Shown: piece after piece, positions 18,987-37,922 of the stretch
How the letters are laid out: each line of letters begins with the position of its first letter
How positions within the stretch are numbered: position 1 is the first letter of the stretch
Assembly: GCA_027485645.1 (NCBI GenBank)
Contig: JAIXQR010000007.1
Span: forward strand, 62,001-126,000
DNA: 64,000 bases
Direction: 5' to 3'
DNA from: a bacterium
GTDB lineage: Bacteria > Armatimonadota > Fimbriimonadia > Fimbriimonadales > Fimbriimonadaceae
Translations under genes and position numbers: made by a program
The notes under the pieces: model-generated
What the model was told of the DNA's origin: nothing
Seen by the model: the letters and a program-made list of their open reading frames with translations, nothing else
The model's database searches: none

Positions 18987-19001
18987 TTTCTTTAGACTCC
19001 A

Positions 19002-19017
19002 ACCCAACATATTGGGT
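19002..19017 (-). promoter_or_regulatory. NrdR box 2 (downstream)
   Basis: 16-mer ACCCAATATGTTGGGT on the minus strand fits the NrdR box consensus at 13 of 16 positions and is part of an 18-bp near-perfect palindrome (19001-19018). It covers the predicted transcription start, so occupancy would block initiation. Confidence 0.8.
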
Positions 19018-19024
19018 TACAGAC

Positions 19025-19054
19025 ATTATCCAACCACAAGCGGTTGTGTGTCAA
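19025..19054 (-). promoter_or_regulatory. Sigma70-type promoter of nrdR-nrdJ
   Basis: On the minus strand: -35 TTGACA (19054-19049), an 18-base spacer, and -10 GATAAT (19030-19025). The predicted start of transcription is near 19018, directly at the downstream NrdR box. The near-consensus hexamers make this one of the best promoters in the window. Confidence 0.85.
19034..19049 (-). promoter_or_regulatory. NrdR box 1 (upstream)
   Basis: 16-mer ACACAACCGCTTGTGG on the minus strand fits the NrdR box consensus acaCwAtATaTwGtgt at 11 of 16 positions, with the outer arms conserved and a GC-rich centre. It lies in the promoter spacer. It is separated from box 2 by exactly 16 bases (32 bp centre to centre), the spacing described for paired NrdR boxes. 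Confidence 0.7.
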
Positions 19055-19130
19055 GCATAAATTTTCCGAATGTTTGACGCAACTTTTCCACGGAGTTTTC
19101 CAGGTTCGAGGGTTGCTAACGGGTTTTCCC

Positions 19131-20141
19131 TTAGCTTTCGCACAATTGGTGGATAAGGTCGGCGCGGGTGGTCCCTGCCGCGTCCTCACCCAAAGTTGGC
19201 CGTAGTTCGAGAGAGGCCAACACGTGATCGACCGAAAGCACGGTCGCAGGGAAGGTGGAAAGTTTTTCGGCCGCCGCCCAGCGAATCCAGCCGAGGATTC
19301 GAACCGAGTCGGCAAGCGACAAAGTCCGGTTCGCGAGCGCAAAATCTCGCGCTTGATCGGCTCGGGTTCGCAATTGTCCGCTCAGCCGGTCCTCACGGGC
19401 AATCCGCTCTTGCTGGACGAGATACTCGCATGCGCCGCGAAACTCGGCGTCTTCTTCTCGCAAAACGCTCACCTGCAAAAACGCGCCGATCGCCCGGCTC
19501 GATTCGCCAAAAAGCCCGCGGACAACGATGTTCTTGGTTGCAAGCGCTTGCAGGACGGATGGTAGACGTTTGGAGTGGGCGAGGCCGATGAGGTGGAAGA
19601 AAATGCTGGTCCGGCGGCCAGATCCGCAGTTTGGCGGGGAAGCCGCGAGGTACCCGTGTTTCGCGTGCGTGCAGAAATCCAACTTGGCACTCATCCGCTT
19701 GATGAGGCCGGAGACTAGTGGGCTAGCGGCATCTAGATTCCAGCCGCCAAGAATTGCCTGCGCCCGAACGTGGTCCTCTTCGTTTACCATCACGCAAAGG
19801 CTGCGTTCTGTATTTGTCAGGAGCGCTCGACCCGGCAAGGTCCAGGGAAACTCTGGGCTCACCAGCCGGGAAGCCACCAAATAGTCGCGCTCTGCATTCG
19901 TGAGGTTTTTTGTGGACTCAAACTTCTCCGACTCGGTGGCCGAAAGCACATCCGCCATGATGCCGTTGAGCTCTTCTGGCTCGGCAAAAGTCGGGAACCG
20001 GTGACCGACGAGGTTTCGCATAATCCGAACGCGCGTGCTCAGGCAGACGTCTCGGTGCGGGCCCTCTTGGGTGAGCCAAAGCGGTTTCGGCATGGATTTT
20101 AAGACCATGCGCTGCCAGCTTTCAGGATTTGGTTGGCTCAT
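19131..20141 (-). CDS. McsB-like guanidino (protein-arginine) kinase homologue
   Basis: 336 aa ATP:guanido phosphotransferase homologue, closest in layout to the bacterial protein arginine kinase McsB, which tags proteins for ClpC. Visible motifs: STRVRIMRNL (about 38-47, phosphate-binding arginines), NEEDHVRAQ (about 119, catalytic Glu), HGYLAASPPNCGSGRRTS (about 157-174) and RGLFGESSRAIGAFLQVS (about 206). The catalytic Cys expected before PTN in family members is Ser here (A-S-P-P-N), with a Cys four residues further on. It is the last gene of the TetR operon. No mcsA is adjacent. Kinase activity is therefore uncertain. Confidence 0.75.
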   Translation of the reverse strand: MSQPNPESWQRMVLKSMPKPLWLTQEGPHRDVCLSTRVRIMRNLVGHRFPTFAEPEELNGIMADVLSATESEKFESTKNLTNAERDYLVASRLVSPEFPWTLPGRALLTNTERSLCVMVNEEDHVRAQAILGGWNLDAASPLVSGLIKRMSAKLDFCTHAKHGYLAASPPNCGSGRRTSIFFHLIGLAHSKRLPSVLQALATKNIVVRGLFGESSRAIGAFLQVSVLREEDAEFRGACEYLVQQERIAREDRLSGQLRTRADQARDFALANRTLSLADSVRILGWIRWAAAEKLSTFPATVLSVDHVLASLELRPTLGEDAAGTTRADLIHQLCES

Positions 20142-20793
20142 TGGGCTTCGATATTGTGAACGGAGAATGGTCAACGATGCCGCTGCAAATCATCATGAGG
20201 ACTTGGCCGACCGCCCTCGCTTGAGCTTCTGGGGCAGAAATTCCAACGGCAGGAAGTGCCCCGTTGGTCGTAATCGACGCCAGCCCATGGACGGTTGACC
20301 ACGCAAAAAGTGCGAGTTCTCGGTTCAACTCGGGATTTTCGTTTCCTCGCATGCGACGAATGGCATCGTGCAACAAGCCAAACGCGGCCGTCGCTTTCTG
20401 CTCCAGCCCGGCGTGGCGATGAAGGTTGGGAAACGGAGTTTCGAACATCAGCCGGTACTGCAACGGTTTCACGCGAGCGTAGGTGAGGTACCGCTGACCG
20501 ATCTCGCCAAGGTCCTGCTGCGGATCTTCGGCCAGCGGTCTGGCATGAAGGAAGCTGGCAAAGTCATCGAACGCGCGCCCAATGACTTCGGCCAAAAGAT
20601 CCTCACGATTCGGAAAGTGCTTATATGGCGCCTGGTGTGAAATCGATAGCCGACGCGCCACTTCGCGGAGGCTCAGCTTGTCGACACCGTCCGTGGCAAT
20701 GATGTTCAAAGCCTCTTGGATGCACGCTTCTCGCACGCCGAGGCCCGTTCGATCTGCCCGGGTTGGGTTTGGAAGTTCCGCCATCGGTGACAT
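20122..20793 (-). CDS. TetR-family transcriptional regulator
   Basis: 223 aa TetR regulator. The helix-turn-helix lies near residues 20-65 (IQEALNIIATDGVDKLSLRE ... SISHQAPYKHFPNREDLLAEV), followed by a ligand-binding domain with the WHG-like pattern (ALFAWSTVHGLASI). The coding frame stays open for 82 more codons into the upstream SDR gene, but I start at ATG 20793, which lies 5 bases after the SDR stop and just before the HTH. It is co-transcribed with SDR and the Fe-S/SCP2 gene and probably binds the palindrome at 22947-22973. Confidence 0.9.
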   Translation of the reverse strand: MSPMAELPNPTRADRTGLGVREACIQEALNIIATDGVDKLSLREVARRLSISHQAPYKHFPNREDLLAEVIGRAFDDFASFLHARPLAEDPQQDLGEIGQRYLTYARVKPLQYRLMFETPFPNLHRHAGLEQKATAAFGLLHDAIRRMRGNENPELNRELALFAWSTVHGLASITTNGALPAVGISAPEAQARAVGQVLMMICSGIVDHSPFTISKPNEPTKS

Positions 20794-20798
20794 CAAGT

Positions 20799-21593
20799 CT
20801 ACGACTTTCCGTAATTTGAGAGTCCCGCCATCACCTGCTTCATGATGTGCACGCGCCATGGTCGCGGGCAGGTGAAGAGCGAGTAGCTGAGCACCTTCGA
20901 AAGGACGCCGGGAATCACCAAGGACCGCCGGCCAAGCGCTTGCAAAGAAGCCTTGGCGACCTGCTCGGCGGTCGCGCCAGCCTTGATCGTCATGTTGGCC
21001 CGCTTCTCGAACGCGGTCAGAACCGGACCAGGAGCGCAACTCAGCACGTCAGCCCCATTCGATTTCCATTCCAGCGACAGTGCTTCGGCCAACGACTGAA
21101 CGAACGCCTTGCTCGCAGCATAAACCGCTGAGTTCGGTACCCCCTGCCAAGCGAGCAGGCTCGATAACAGAATGACTCCGCCTCGGCGCTGTGCATTTAG
21201 CCTTGACCCGATGGCGTGAGTCAGTGTCATCAGGGCATCGCAGTTCACGCTCAACATGTTCTGGTGATCCGCTATATCCGCGGCAAGAAACGGTCCCGAC
21301 GAACCGAACCCGGCCGAGGCTACGAGCAGTCCGACTTCGAGATCTTTGGTGCCTTCAATGACTTTATTCACGCCAAGGCCCTCTGACAGGTCGGCGGCAA
21401 TGACGCGAACTTGGACCGAATGAGCCTTCCGCAAAATCGACTCCAGGTTCGTCAGTGCCGCTTCGTTCCTCGCGACCAAGACGACGTTTATCCCGCTCGC
21501 AGCGAGTTCGATGGCGAATGCCTCTCCGATGCCAGAGGATGCGCCGGTGACAATGGCCCAAGGGCCGTATCGAGATTTGAGGTGGTTGTTCAT
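20799..21593 (-). CDS. Short-chain dehydrogenase/reductase (SDR)
   Basis: 264 aa classical SDR oxidoreductase using NAD(P)H. Cofactor motif TGASSGIG at about residue 16; D-L-S after the third strand; ASAGFG in place of N-A-G; catalytic Ser in LLSSLL and YAASK (Tyr and Lys) at about 158. A C-terminal extension (PGVLSKVLSYSLFTCPRPW...) looks like those of membrane- or lipid-associated SDRs. It lies between the Fe-S/SCP2 gene (6-base gap) and the TetR gene. A lipid-type substrate is an inference from the SCP2 neighbour. Confidence 0.9.
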   Translation of the reverse strand: MNNHLKSRYGPWAIVTGASSGIGEAFAIELAASGINVVLVARNEAALTNLESILRKAHSVQVRVIAADLSEGLGVNKVIEGTKDLEVGLLVASAGFGSSGPFLAADIADHQNMLSVNCDALMTLTHAIGSRLNAQRRGGVILLSSLLAWQGVPNSAVYAASKAFVQSLAEALSLEWKSNGADVLSCAPGPVLTAFEKRANMTIKAGATAEQVAKASLQALGRRSLVIPGVLSKVLSYSLFTCPRPWRVHIMKQVMAGLSNYGKS

Positions 21594-21599
21594 CTTGAA

Positions 21600-22925
21600 T
21601 TAGCCCGGGAAGCATTTACCAAAAGCGATCAGGTGTTTGGGATTGCCGCGCAGCCGGAGTGATCGTGTCAATAGCAAATTCGGTAGGGAACGGCGCTTTG
21701 CGACAAAGTCCACCCAAGCCCGCGAGTCCGCCGTAACGGACAAATCGGGCGTGCCGTTGTGGGCGTGCTCGATCTCAAGCTTCTGGTTCTCAATCGTAAA
21801 GGTCATTTGCGCCGGTTCGGTCCCCGTAAAGGTGAAATGAATCCGGAGCTTGAGGCCGCGAGCCTTTCCTCGCTGGAATCCAAGCGGCATGATTTCCAGA
21901 AGTTTGGCCAGCGACTTTGGACGGAGGCCGCTACCGATGTGCCGGACCCGTTTGTGCGGGAAGCGCTTCTGGACATAAGCATCCGCGTCACTTCCTGGCA
22001 CGACATAGATGGGCTCTTCTTTCTCCTGAAGCGGATTTAAGACGTCCTTAATGAACTTCGCTTTGTTTCGGAGAAACGGTCCGATGACGTCCTCACCGGC
22101 AGGGCAAGCGGCAACGCAGTAGGCCGATTTGTAATTCGCGCCGAACGACAAGCTTTGCCAGAGGGATGCCGTTTCGGTGTCTTCGAACTTGCTTTGGTAT
22201 TCCCGCCGGTTTTTGCTATCGGCCACCGTATCCACCCAGTCAATAAACCCGCCAAAGAACTCGCGGTAGTTGTGGTTGAGGCAGGCAACCGAATCAAAGT
22301 GCCCATCTGGGGCGATCGCGCCTACCGGACAGGCCGCGACGCACAGCTTGCATTCAAGGCAAGGATTGTAATCGATGGGTTGGCTTTCTTCCGTCGGCGC
22401 GGTGTCGATAAGAATGCTGTCCAGCAAGATGAAGTTGCCAAAGATCGGATGGATCACGTTTCGGTGGATCCCCATTTTCCCCATGCCCGCAGCTTCGGCG
22501 ACCACCTTGTGAGCGACGATCCAACTCCTTCCAGGCAACTCCGTCATTTCCATCGGAAATCCGGCGGCGGTCGGTAAGGACCTTATTCCTCGCTCCCGCA
22601 GCGCTTTCGAAATGTTCCGAGCAACGTGATTCACTTCTTGCGTGGCCGAATGAAATTCTTGGTTTGCGAGACTTCTCTTCGTGGAGCGCACGGCTTCGGG
22701 AGACATTCGAATCACGATCGAGATCACGGCCTGGGTCGAGGGCAGCGCCTGGAGGACGTATGGACGTTCCGTGTCGAGCTCGGGCCGGTCAAGCAAAACG
22801 ACTCCCGCATCATCGGCACCGCAATCAAGGCAAAGCTGGCGAAGTTCCTTCAAGCTGATTGGCGCCGGTTCTGGTTGCGAGGGCTGAGCCTTCACGTTGC
22901 GGATGGTTGGATGATCCAATTTCAT
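21600..22925 (-). CDS. 4Fe-4S protein (QueG/reductive-dehalogenase-like) with C-terminal SCP2 domain
   Basis: 441 aa protein. The N-terminal two thirds resemble epoxyqueuosine-reductase-like or corrinoid Fe-S reductases, with a 4Fe-4S motif C-L-E-C-K-L-C-V-A-A-C-P-V-G-A-I at about 200 and further Cys in VACLNHN and YCVAACPAGED. The last ~90 residues (LRIHFTFTGTEPAQMTFTIE ... DSRAWVDFV) look like an SCP2 sterol-carrier fold, which binds lipids. The ATG at 22925 is chosen because earlier in-frame codons fall inside the operator. It is first in the operon with the SDR, TetR and McsB-like genes. This fusion is not a canonical QueG. Confidence 0.7.
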   Translation of the reverse strand: MKLDHPTIRNVKAQPSQPEPAPISLKELRQLCLDCGADDAGVVLLDRPELDTERPYVLQALPSTQAVISIVIRMSPEAVRSTKRSLANQEFHSATQEVNHVARNISKALRERGIRSLPTAAGFPMEMTELPGRSWIVAHKVVAEAAGMGKMGIHRNVIHPIFGNFILLDSILIDTAPTEESQPIDYNPCLECKLCVAACPVGAIAPDGHFDSVACLNHNYREFFGGFIDWVDTVADSKNRREYQSKFEDTETASLWQSLSFGANYKSAYCVAACPAGEDVIGPFLRNKAKFIKDVLNPLQEKEEPIYVVPGSDADAYVQKRFPHKRVRHIGSGLRPKSLAKLLEIMPLGFQRGKARGLKLRIHFTFTGTEPAQMTFTIENQKLEIEHAHNGTPDLSVTADSRAWVDFVAKRRSLPNLLLTRSLRLRGNPKHLIAFGKCFPG

Positions 22926-22946
22926 GAGCCACCGACACCCTACCAC

Positions 22947-22973
22947 GTCTTGGTAGACACTGTCTACCAAGAC
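22947..22973 (-). promoter_or_regulatory. 27-bp perfect palindrome, likely TetR operator
   Basis: Arms gtcttggtagaca / tgtctaccaagac (13 bp, no mismatch) around one central C. It lies 21 bases upstream of the first gene of an operon that encodes a TetR regulator, which makes autoregulation the simplest reading. Length and symmetry are typical of TetR-family operators. Confidence 0.85.
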
Positions 22974-23005: not shown

Positions 23006-24250
23006 CTACGGAGTGCCGAGTTGGGCGGCGAGTTCTTTCATGAAGAACTCACAGTCGGTCACGATTCCAACCGCCTGGTGCGTGCCGCGGTCGGTGAGTT
23101 TGATCACGGTGTCGGCGTCCGAGTCAACGCAGTATGTTTTGACCTTGGCCGGAAGAATGTTGCCCGTGGCAACGCTATGCAATGTAGTGGCGACCATCAA
23201 GCAAACGCCAACGTTGCCAACATGCTCGCGCATCGTGTCCACCGCAAGCACGTTGTCCGTAATGACATCGGGCAGGGGACCATCATCTCGAATGGACCCG
23301 CAGAGAACGAACGGCGTGCCGGTTTGGATGCATGCATGCATTGCGCCCGCGGTGATCAGGCCCGTCTCGACGGCAGCGCGGATGCTTCCGGCCCGGCGAA
23401 CTCGGTTTATGGCGCGAAGATGGTGGGTGTGCCCGTGCGTCTTGCTTTGTCCGGTGCCGAGATCAACGCCGAGGGATGTGCCCAGCATCTCCGACTCAAT
23501 ATCATGCGCCGCTAAGGCGTTTCCTGCGAACAGAAGATTGATCCAGCCGTCTCGAATCAGGCTGGCCAGGACCGGTCCGCAGCCGGAGTGGATGATGGCC
23601 GGACCGCCGACGAGCAGCACCTTTTCGCCTTTAGCCCGCGCTTCGCGAATATGGGCGGCAGCCTGAGCGATCATCCGCGACTTCGGTCGTTCGGAGCTGA
23701 TGTCGTTGCTCATGAAGCGAAACGCTTCTTGTTCATCGGATTCTTCGGTCTCGGGGCTCACTCGCACGCCGTCCCAGCCCACGACGAGTAGGTCGCCTTT
23801 GATGACCCGGTGCATCGGGCACGTTTCGGCGCGCCAGCGGCCCTGGTCTTGCCAAACGCGGATGCCACAGTCCATCTCCAGCCGTTCCACATCGATCCGG
23901 TGCCCATCAATCAGAACCTGGGTGGGGAAGTTGGTAGTGCTGTGGAAGTCCTCCGGGAGTACGCCATCCTGTTCCGCTTCGGCGAGTTGGGCATTGTCGA
24001 GCGAGAAGGTGGCCCCCAGCGGTCGCAGCGCTTCGAGCGTTTCGTTGAGGCGATCCATCGTGTCGGCGGAGATCACGATCTCGATGATGGAGGGCATTTG
24101 ACTCCACTCGCCGACCAAGAATTTCTTCGTGGCAAATTGGACTCCGTGCTCATTCAGGAGATCTAGGACGCGGCTCAGAAGATTCTTATCCAAAAGATCG
24201 CCATGAAGGCTAATGCGCTCGGTAACCACAACATAGTGTAGCGTCCACAT
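23006..24250 (-). CDS. TIGR00300/archaeal-type ornithine cyclodeaminase-like protein
   Basis: 414 aa protein of the LOR/SDH-bifunctional-like family (TIGR00300), related to the archaeal ornithine cyclodeaminase that converts ornithine to proline plus ammonia with NAD. N-terminal domain: ERISLHGDLLDKNLLSRVLD and PTQVLIDGH (about 113). NAD-binding-like region: VLLVGGPAIIHSGCGPVLASLI (about 212), then LLFAGNALAAHDIE and a H-x-H-H motif (THGHTHHLRAINRVRRAGS). C-terminal half: PFVLCGSIRDDGPLPDV. Start ATG 24250; a GTG at 24229 is an alternative. It is divergent from pheS. Confidence 0.75.
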   Translation of the reverse strand: MWTLHYVVVTERISLHGDLLDKNLLSRVLDLLNEHGVQFATKKFLVGEWSQMPSIIEIVISADTMDRLNETLEALRPLGATFSLDNAQLAEAEQDGVLPEDFHSTTNFPTQVLIDGHRIDVERLEMDCGIRVWQDQGRWRAETCPMHRVIKGDLLVVGWDGVRVSPETEESDEQEAFRFMSNDISSERPKSRMIAQAAAHIREARAKGEKVLLVGGPAIIHSGCGPVLASLIRDGWINLLFAGNALAAHDIESEMLGTSLGVDLGTGQSKTHGHTHHLRAINRVRRAGSIRAAVETGLITAGAMHACIQTGTPFVLCGSIRDDGPLPDVITDNVLAVDTMREHVGNVGVCLMVATTLHSVATGNILPAKVKTYCVDSDADTVIKLTDRGTHQAVGIVTDCEFFMKELAAQLGTP

Positions 24251-35349: not shown

Positions 35350-37848
35350 ATGTGGCAACGCTTTACTGAACGCGCCCGGAAGGTCGTGTTCTACGCGCAA
35401 GAAGAGGCTCAGAAGTTCGGGGAAGGTTACGTTTCGACGGAACACCTGCTCCTCGGGCTCGTAAGAGAGTCGGACAGCGTCGCCGCACGCGTTCTCGAGA
35501 AATTAGGCGTAAGCCTAAACCGCATTCGCTCTGAGGTTGAAAAGCAGCTTCCACGGGGCGATGCGAGGCCAAATCAGGATATGACCCTGACTCCTCGAGC
35601 CAAGCGCGTGATCGATCTTGCATATGACGAGGCTCGCAACCTGAACAACAATTACATTGGCACCGAGCATTTGCTACTCGGGCTGATTCGAGAAGGCGAC
35701 GGCTTAGCCGGACGCGTCCTCTCGAAACTCGGAGTCGAACTTGAAAAAGCTCGCCGAGAAGTGATGACGCTTCAAGACAACGATACGCAGGCAAAGTCTG
35801 GTTTCGGAACACGGGCTGCCTCCACCACCAACGCCAAGACCCAAACTCTGGACGAGTTCGGTCGAGATCTTACGGAGTTGGCGCGAGAAGGGAAGCTTGA
35901 CCCGGTAGTCGGACGACACACCGAAATCGAGCGCGTCATGCAGATTCTTTGTCGCCGAACAAAGAACAACCCATGTCTCATTGGTGACCCAGGCGTCGGA
36001 AAGACGGCGATTGCCGAGGGGCTCGCCCTTCGCATTGTCTCGGGCGACATTCCCGAGATTCTGAAAAACAAGCGCATCGTCTCTCTTGATCTAGCGGGCT
36101 TGGTCGCCGGTACGAAGTACCGAGGCGAATTCGAGGAGCGCATGAAGAAGGTCATGGAAGAGGTCCGAAAGTCGGAAGGCCAAGTGATCCTCTTCATCGA
36201 CGAACTTCACACCCTCGTGGGAGCGGGCGCGGCCGAAGGTGCGATTGATGCCTCGAACATCATGAAGCCAGCTTTGGCGCGTGGTGAACTCCAGTGCATC
36301 GGTGCCACGACTCAGGACGAGTTCCGCAAGTACATCGAGCGAGACGCCGCCCTCGAGCGTCGTTTCCAAGCGGTCAAGGTTAAAGAGCCAAGTGAAGAAG
36401 AGGCGATCGAGATCCTTCGCGGCCTCCGCGAACGGTACGAGGCGCATCACCAGGTGGAGATCACCGACGAGGCGATCACCAGCGCGGTCTCCTTGTCTCA
36501 GCGATACATCTCGGATCGAACCTTGCCGGACAAAGCGATCGACTTGATCGACGAAGCCGCGTCACGCGTTCGCTTGCAGCAGAGCCTGCCACCCGCAGAC
36601 GTTCGCGCCGATCGTCAGCGACTCACGAAGCTCCGCACCAATTTCGAACATCTTTCGAAGCGATCTGAAGATCAGGAAATGCTTGAAAAGATGAAGGCAG
36701 AGATTGATGGCCTTGAGGTCAGCATTCTCGAAAGGGAAGAAGCCTGGGCTGCAGAGCCAAAGGCCGAGCCAGTGGTTGGAGAACCCGAAATTGCCGGCAT
36801 CGTTCAAAGTTGGACCGGCATTCCGGTAACCCGACTTGTCGAAACGGAAAGTCAGAAGCTTCTTCGCATGGAAGAGGATTTGCACGAGCGAATCATCGGC
36901 CAGCAAGATGCAGTCCGTGCCGTTTCGCGAGCCATCCGACGATCCCGATCCGGACTCAAGGATCCAAAGCGACCGATCGCCTCGTTCGTCTTCCTTGGAC
37001 CAACCGGCGTTGGAAAGACCGAGCTTGCAAAAGCACTTGCGGCTTACCTTTACGAAAAGGAAAGCAACATGGTCCGAATCGACATGTCGGAGTACATGGA
37101 GCGATTCGCGGTCAGCCGATTGACCGGTGCCCCTCCGGGATACGTTGGTTACGATGAGGGCGGTCAGTTGACCGAACAAGTTCGGCGCAATCCGTATTGC
37201 GTTGTGCTCTTCGATGAAATCGAAAAGGCTCACCCCGAAGTCTTCAACTTGCTCCTCCAGGTTCTGGAAGATGGTCAGTTGACCGACTCTCAGGGACGCA
37301 CGGTGGACTTCCGAAACACCCTGATCATCATGACTTCGAACATCGGTGTCCGACCGATTGAGATGGACAAGGGACTTGGCTTCCGCGACACCCGACCGGA
37401 TTACAACGATCCGAAGGTGTACGAGAACATGAAGACCAAGATGCTGGACGAAATGAAGAAATCGTTCCGGCCCGAGTTCATCAACCGAATCGATGAGGTC
37501 ATCGTGTTCCAGCACCTCAAGCGAGACGAGATTCTCCAGATCGCATCCTTGTTCTTGGCGCGAGTCAACGAACAGGCAACTTCGATGGGAATCCAGATCG
37601 AACTGAGCGAAGAGGTCAAGAACCTCCTCGTAGACAAGGGCTACGATCCGAACATGGGCGCACGACCACTCCGAAGAGCGGTTCAGCGATTCATCGAGGA
37701 TCCGCTCAGCGAAGAGATGCTGCTCGGTCGATTCCAGTCCGGTGACGTGATCATCGCGGAACTTGAGCCCGGAACCGAAACGGTCATCTTCCGCCGGAAG
37801 ACTACGCCAGACGGTAACGAGCCACAGAAAGAACTCGCGCTGAACTGA
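35350..37848 (+). CDS. clpC: ATP-dependent Clp protease ATP-binding subunit ClpC
   Basis: 832 aa Hsp100 unfoldase that feeds substrates to ClpP. Two N-terminal repeats for substrate and adaptor binding (about 5-145). AAA1 domain: Walker [10 protein letters not shown] at about 207, Walker [12 protein letters not shown]. Middle domain around residues 400-470, short as in ClpC. AAA2: GPTGVGKTE at about 545, [13 protein letters not shown]. The C-terminal domain is complete. A good Shine-Dalgarno AGGAAAA lies upstream. A strong terminator follows. No mcsA or ctsR is adjacent, though an McsB-like gene lies at 19131-20141. Confidence 0.96.
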
Positions 37849-37860
37849 GGAACGCTTGCA

Positions 37861-37896
37861 AGAGGCACAGGAGGGACTAGTCCCTCCTGTGCCTCT
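37861..37896 (+). terminator. Terminator of clpC
   Basis: 16-bp perfect stem agaggcacaggaggga / tccctcctgtgcctct with loop ctag, followed by ttgtttgtt. Confidence 0.95.
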
Positions 37897-37922
37897 TTGT
37901 TTGTTCACGAAAATGAGTAAAT

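Follow-up and report, generated by a model that had tools for sequence, protein, structure and literature searches.

The window, that is, the whole 64-kb stretch of DNA analysed here, carries a perfect palindrome of 27 bp at 22947-22973. Its 13-nt arms are 100% complementary with one base between them, it reads GTCTTGGTAGACAGTGTCTACCAAGAC on the minus strand, and it contains a putative 17-bp operator core, GGTAGACANTGTCTACC, at 22952-22968. Only two perfect palindromes with arms of at least 13 nt and a spacer of at most 3 were found in the window, of which this is one, and none appeared in order-1 Markov simulations of the window (n=20). Exactly 21 bases lie between the palindrome and the first ATG (22923-22925), so that length, arms, central base and distance to the first start codon were all as the original prediction had described them.

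Four genes follow on the minus strand. The first (21600-22925) encodes an Fe-S protein with a QueG/reductive-dehalogenase-like N-terminal region (TIGR00276), seven invariant cysteines in the Fe-S region and a C-terminal SCP2 domain (Pfam SCP2, 2e-5; Alkyl_sulf_C, 4e-6), hereafter Fe-S/SCP2. It is followed by genes for a short-chain dehydrogenase/reductase (SDR; 20799-21593; Pfam adh_short, 3e-37), a TetR-family regulator with the Pfam domains TetR_N and TetR_C_33, which is the proposed autorepressor (20122-20793), and a McsB-like guanidino kinase (19131-20138; Pfam ATP-gua_Ptrans, 3e-31). The junctions are tight: 6 bp separate the Fe-S/SCP2 stop from the SDR start, 5 bp separate the SDR stop from the TetR start (20793), and the end of tetR overlaps the McsB-like ATG (20138) by 17 bp. 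The predicted run of four same-strand genes was therefore recovered, with the correction that TetR, listed first in the prediction, is encoded third.

Upstream of the palindrome and on the same strand as the operon, a gene for an ArgZ-like ornithine cyclodeaminase of the nickel-pincer-nucleotide type (23006-24250; TIGR00300, 440 bits, above the cut-off) ends 32 bp before it. As no minus-strand terminator-like site was found between this gene and the operon, read-through from the former into the latter is possible. Beyond the McsB-like gene, a strong promoter-like site precedes nrdR (18990-19060; TTGACA-18-GATAAT, 11/12), with AACCCAATATGTTGGGTT, which resembles an NrdR box, nearby; this suggests that nrdR is transcribed separately from mcsB. 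A ClpC-type ATPase is encoded in the same window (35350-37848), not adjacent to the McsB-like kinase, indicating that the usual McsB partner is present. A 38-bp perfect palindrome at 37860-37897, AAGAGGCACAGGAGGGACTAGTCCCTCCTGTGCCTCTT followed by TGTTTGTT, lies 11 bp past the stop of this ClpC-type gene and is most likely its intrinsic terminator.

Putative operator in related genomes

Full-length Fe-S/SCP2 orthologues were found in 3 of 60 relatives, namely G014 (86% identity), G026 (63%) and G006 (58%), and the gene order Fe-S/SCP2, SDR, TetR is common to all three. A search with TetR itself identified G004 (TetR 61% identity), in which the operon consists of SDR-TetR and the Fe-S/SCP2 gene is absent. 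Together with the genome of the window (G000), there are close TetR orthologues in five genomes, which represent four independent lineages, G000 and G014 being close sisters. Each of the five has a 17-bp match to GGTWKACANTGTCWACC, with at most one mismatch, upstream of the first gene of the operon. The putative operators are GGTAGACAGTGTCTACC in G000, GGTAGACACTGTCTACT in G014 (one mismatch to the pattern), GGTTGACAATGTCAACC and GGTTTACACTGTCAACC, 22 bp apart, in G026, AGTTGACACTGTCTACC and GGTTTACACTGTCAACC, 23 bp apart, in G006, and GGTTGACAGTGTCAACC, before SDR, in G004. The palindrome core is thus present before the orthologous operons of G014, G026 and G006, where the original prediction had expected the palindrome to recur, as well as ahead of SDR-TetR in G004. 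Because G004 lacks Fe-S/SCP2 yet keeps the operator, the operator travels with TetR.

When 18 genomes were scanned, perfect matches to GGTWKACANTGTCWACC were found solely at the operons of G000, G026, G006 and G004. Other one-mismatch matches occurred at three places (G002, G003 and G028), while the reversed control pattern gave two, indicating that these three are background. A whole-genome search allowing 3 mismatches in 21 bp placed the operator at one position, with no second copy, so the further copies of the palindrome for which the original prediction had allowed do not occur elsewhere in the genome at this threshold. A wider regulon was rejected on this ground and because two-mismatch matches in the relatives look like background.

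Among more distant TetRs, that of G029 has no operator site within one mismatch, and the only site for that of G150 has two mismatches and lies on a different contig; both regulators sit in other genomic surroundings. In two cyanobacterial genomes (G532 and G392, which belong to the same phylum as the Melainabacteria record), a homologous TetR_C_33 regulator (33-34% identity) is encoded divergently to SDR and Fe-S/SCP2, and palindromes of the TCTAAACANTGTTTAGA type have the centre ACANTGT in common with the operator. In G082, from another family of the window's phylum, a TetR of the same type (47% identity) lies directly behind Fe-S/SCP2 with no SDR between (L097:1-1230); this contig ends before the operator region.

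The TetR assignment is based on PF00440 (8.7e-9) and PF13305 (5.9e-13), both above the cut-off, and the predicted structure is all-helical (mean pLDDT 62.6). While the TetRs are only 35-60% identical between lineages, the recognition region LSLREVARRLSISHQAPYKHF is nearly invariant in the five orthologues, which would be expected if these proteins read the same DNA. As tetR is third in the operon and does not adjoin the site, one may ask whether a different regulator, global or unlinked, binds the palindrome while TetR controls something else. The single operator copy in the genome argues against another regulator, as does the co-occurrence of the operator with this TetR in four lineages, one of them G004, which lacks Fe-S/SCP2; we regard a foreign regulator as most improbable.

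The palindrome could also act as RNA, as a hairpin or an intrinsic terminator that ends, for example, the upstream ArgZ-like transcript. The 27-mer folds at -17.8 kcal/mol, it follows closely on the ArgZ-like stop, and the stem is fully paired in the sister G014, with one symmetric change in the outer arm and one G-U pair. However, the palindrome is not followed by a T-run on the minus strand, and the terminator-like site was called on the plus strand, on which no gene ends at this point. Nor is the stem conserved (-1.2 kcal/mol for one G006 site and -4.0 kcal/mol for the second G026 site), in contrast to the base sequence and its location with respect to the TetR operon, and in G026, G006 and G004 the upstream genes have no relation to ArgZ. 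Given the unconserved pairing and the missing minus-strand T-run, we rejected this explanation as very unlikely. Pairing of the palindrome's outermost 5 bp is confined to G000 and G014 and is thus left unexplained by the shared operator core. In G014 a symmetric T-to-C/A-to-G change in the outer arm retains the symmetry; extra dimer contacts or a hairpin role could explain the outer 5 bp, and a single event is too little to decide between them.

Predicted promoter and proposed autorepression

A promoter of the operon was predicted at 22926-22966 on the minus strand, with the -35 hexamer TAGACA in the left half of the operator, an 18-bp spacer and a -10-like TAGGGT ending 11 bp before the ATG. 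This -10 is weak, and the site is absent from the list of the general promoter scan. At all five loci, a -35 hexamer can be read in the left half-site (TAGACA in G000 and G014, TTGACA in the others), the predicted spacer being 18 bp in G000, G014, G026 and G004 and 19 bp in G006. Across the five loci, the -10-like hexamer ends 7-11 bp ahead of the start codon, and the distance from the centre of the first operator site to the ATG is 31-35 bp; the second operator copy present in G026 and G006 covers the -10 as well. A palindromic operator over the predicted -35 of a regulator-containing operon, the arrangement of a TetR autorepressor, was therefore found in five genomes, and the predicted layout is that expected for a repressor occluding RNA polymerase.

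Considering the conserved core, its position and its association with TetR, we conclude that the palindrome is very probably the operator of the operon's own TetR, with classical ligand-relieved autorepression as the most likely mode of control. A TetR dimer would bind the 17-bp core GGTWKACANTGTCWACC, and as the core overlaps the -35 element of the predicted promoter, bound TetR would exclude RNA polymerase. Repression would cover Fe-S/SCP2, SDR and tetR itself, presumably transcribed together. A small, probably hydrophobic ligand tied to the chemistry of Fe-S/SCP2 and SDR may relieve the repression; its lipid or hydrophobic nature is a guess based on the presence of SCP2 and SDR in the operon. 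The earlier claim that TetR represses its own operon is thus well supported by the conservation of the core before TetR operons in four lineages, and its four-gene extent finds no support beyond G000 and G014.

The McsB-like gene

The McsB-like gene would be co-repressed by its position in G000 and its sister G014 only. The gene was found in 55 of 61 genomes, compared with 4 that have a full-length Fe-S/SCP2, and it is unlinked to the trio of Fe-S/SCP2, SDR and tetR in G006 and G026. In G011 (L050), nrdR-mcsB is followed by the divergent pheS-pheT with 44 bp from mcsB to pheS, and the trio is absent; in the window, mcsB and pheS are separated by the ArgZ-like gene and the trio. This would be explained most simply by insertion of the ArgZ-like gene and the trio upstream of a resident mcsB, between it and pheS, and mcsB may now be co-repressed with the trio.

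A four-gene functional system, in which the McsB-like kinase acts with Fe-S/SCP2, SDR and TetR, for example by phosphorylating them, would fit the location of mcsB on the same strand, its 17-bp overlap with tetR and the repetition of this arrangement in G014. It is at odds with the distribution of the gene, its separation from the trio in G006 and G026 and the trio-less nrdR-mcsB||pheS order of G011, and the gene for ClpC, the usual McsB partner, lies elsewhere in the window. The four-gene set of the original prediction found no support beyond the two sisters, and we consider such a system quite unlikely; the McsB-like gene is probably a bystander behind a three-gene cassette. The protein resembles McsB in the conserved catalytic-region motifs NEEDHxR and VVRGxxGE and is assigned to Pfam ATP-gua_Ptrans; it differs in that its C-terminal part is unmatched, it scores 146.9 bits against a cut-off of 500 for NF053707, and its gene does not lie in a ctsR-mcsA-mcsB-clpC operon.

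The Fe-S/SCP2-SDR module and comparison with known systems

The Fe-S/SCP2 gene is patchily distributed: 6 of 291 genomes from the phylum to which the window belongs and 5 of 292 from that of the Melainabacteria record have it, and it occurs on two Priestia plasmids and one Nostoc plasmid. In Cyanobacteriota and Bacillota it stands beside SDR and/or a TetR, MarR or PadR regulator. Its Priestia neighbours are an LmrA/YxaF-type TetR, SDR and fabF; an LmrA-type TetR adjoins it in the Melainabacteria genome and a MarR in G108; in G484 it occurs with a divergent PadR and an SDR that is 47% identical to that of the window. These neighbourhoods point to a real, patchily distributed and locally regulated module of Fe-S/SCP2 with SDR, plasmid-borne in places. 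A literature search with the operator strings and the gene combination returned nothing relevant and no description of the module. The earlier statement that no system with this gene set has been described thus stands as far as this search goes, although the genes are also found in association in other phyla.

The C-terminal domain of Fe-S/SCP2 scores 25.3 bits for PF02036 (cut-off 21.3). Across eight orthologues drawn from three phyla, the Fe-S region has seven invariant cysteines (CxxCxxCxxxCP, a single C and CxxxCP); the structure model is too poor to be of use (mean pLDDT 49.5, four sequences). In the stretch that runs up to the first 4Fe-4S motif, the protein has weak profile similarity to QueG and to reductive dehalogenases, and it is unlike both in its extra SCP2 domain and in its scores (50.2 bits against a cut-off of 200 for TIGR00276, 29.7 against 160.35 for TIGR02486). 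As these are far below the family cut-offs, we assigned it to neither. The second cluster motif of QueG is CxxCxxxCP, compared with CxxxCP here. For SDR, the best NCBIfam match was mycolate reductase (172 bits, cut-off 380). From these domains we infer that the module may carry out an oxidoreductive step on a hydrophobic compound. Tentatively, and with less than even confidence, it could be an undescribed, horizontally spread redox module with an SCP2-carried hydrophobic substrate, placed repeatedly, in different phyla, under unrelated local regulators (TetR_C_33, LmrA-type TetR, MarR and PadR).

The control mechanism is ordinary, and greater interest attaches to the Fe-S/SCP2-SDR module: a recurring, apparently uncharacterised pair of enzymes, an SDR and a QueG-like Fe-S protein with a fused SCP2 domain, the substrate of which is approachable via what releases the repressor. 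The operator provides a short, testable consensus for a subgroup of TetR_C_33 repressors in a phylum where gene regulation has seen little experimental study. As with EdcR, whose operator overlaps the -10 box and whose gene is divergent (PMC8700777), and with KstR and HsdR, further autorepressing TetR-family regulators of catabolic or lipid genes as cited in that paper, a palindromic operator here overlaps a promoter element, in this case a predicted one. The regulator would likewise repress its own gene together with neighbouring oxidoreductase genes, and the operator is conserved where the DNA-binding domain is conserved. Unlike in EdcR, the operator sequence is another one, tetR is located inside the operon and the site lies over the predicted -35.
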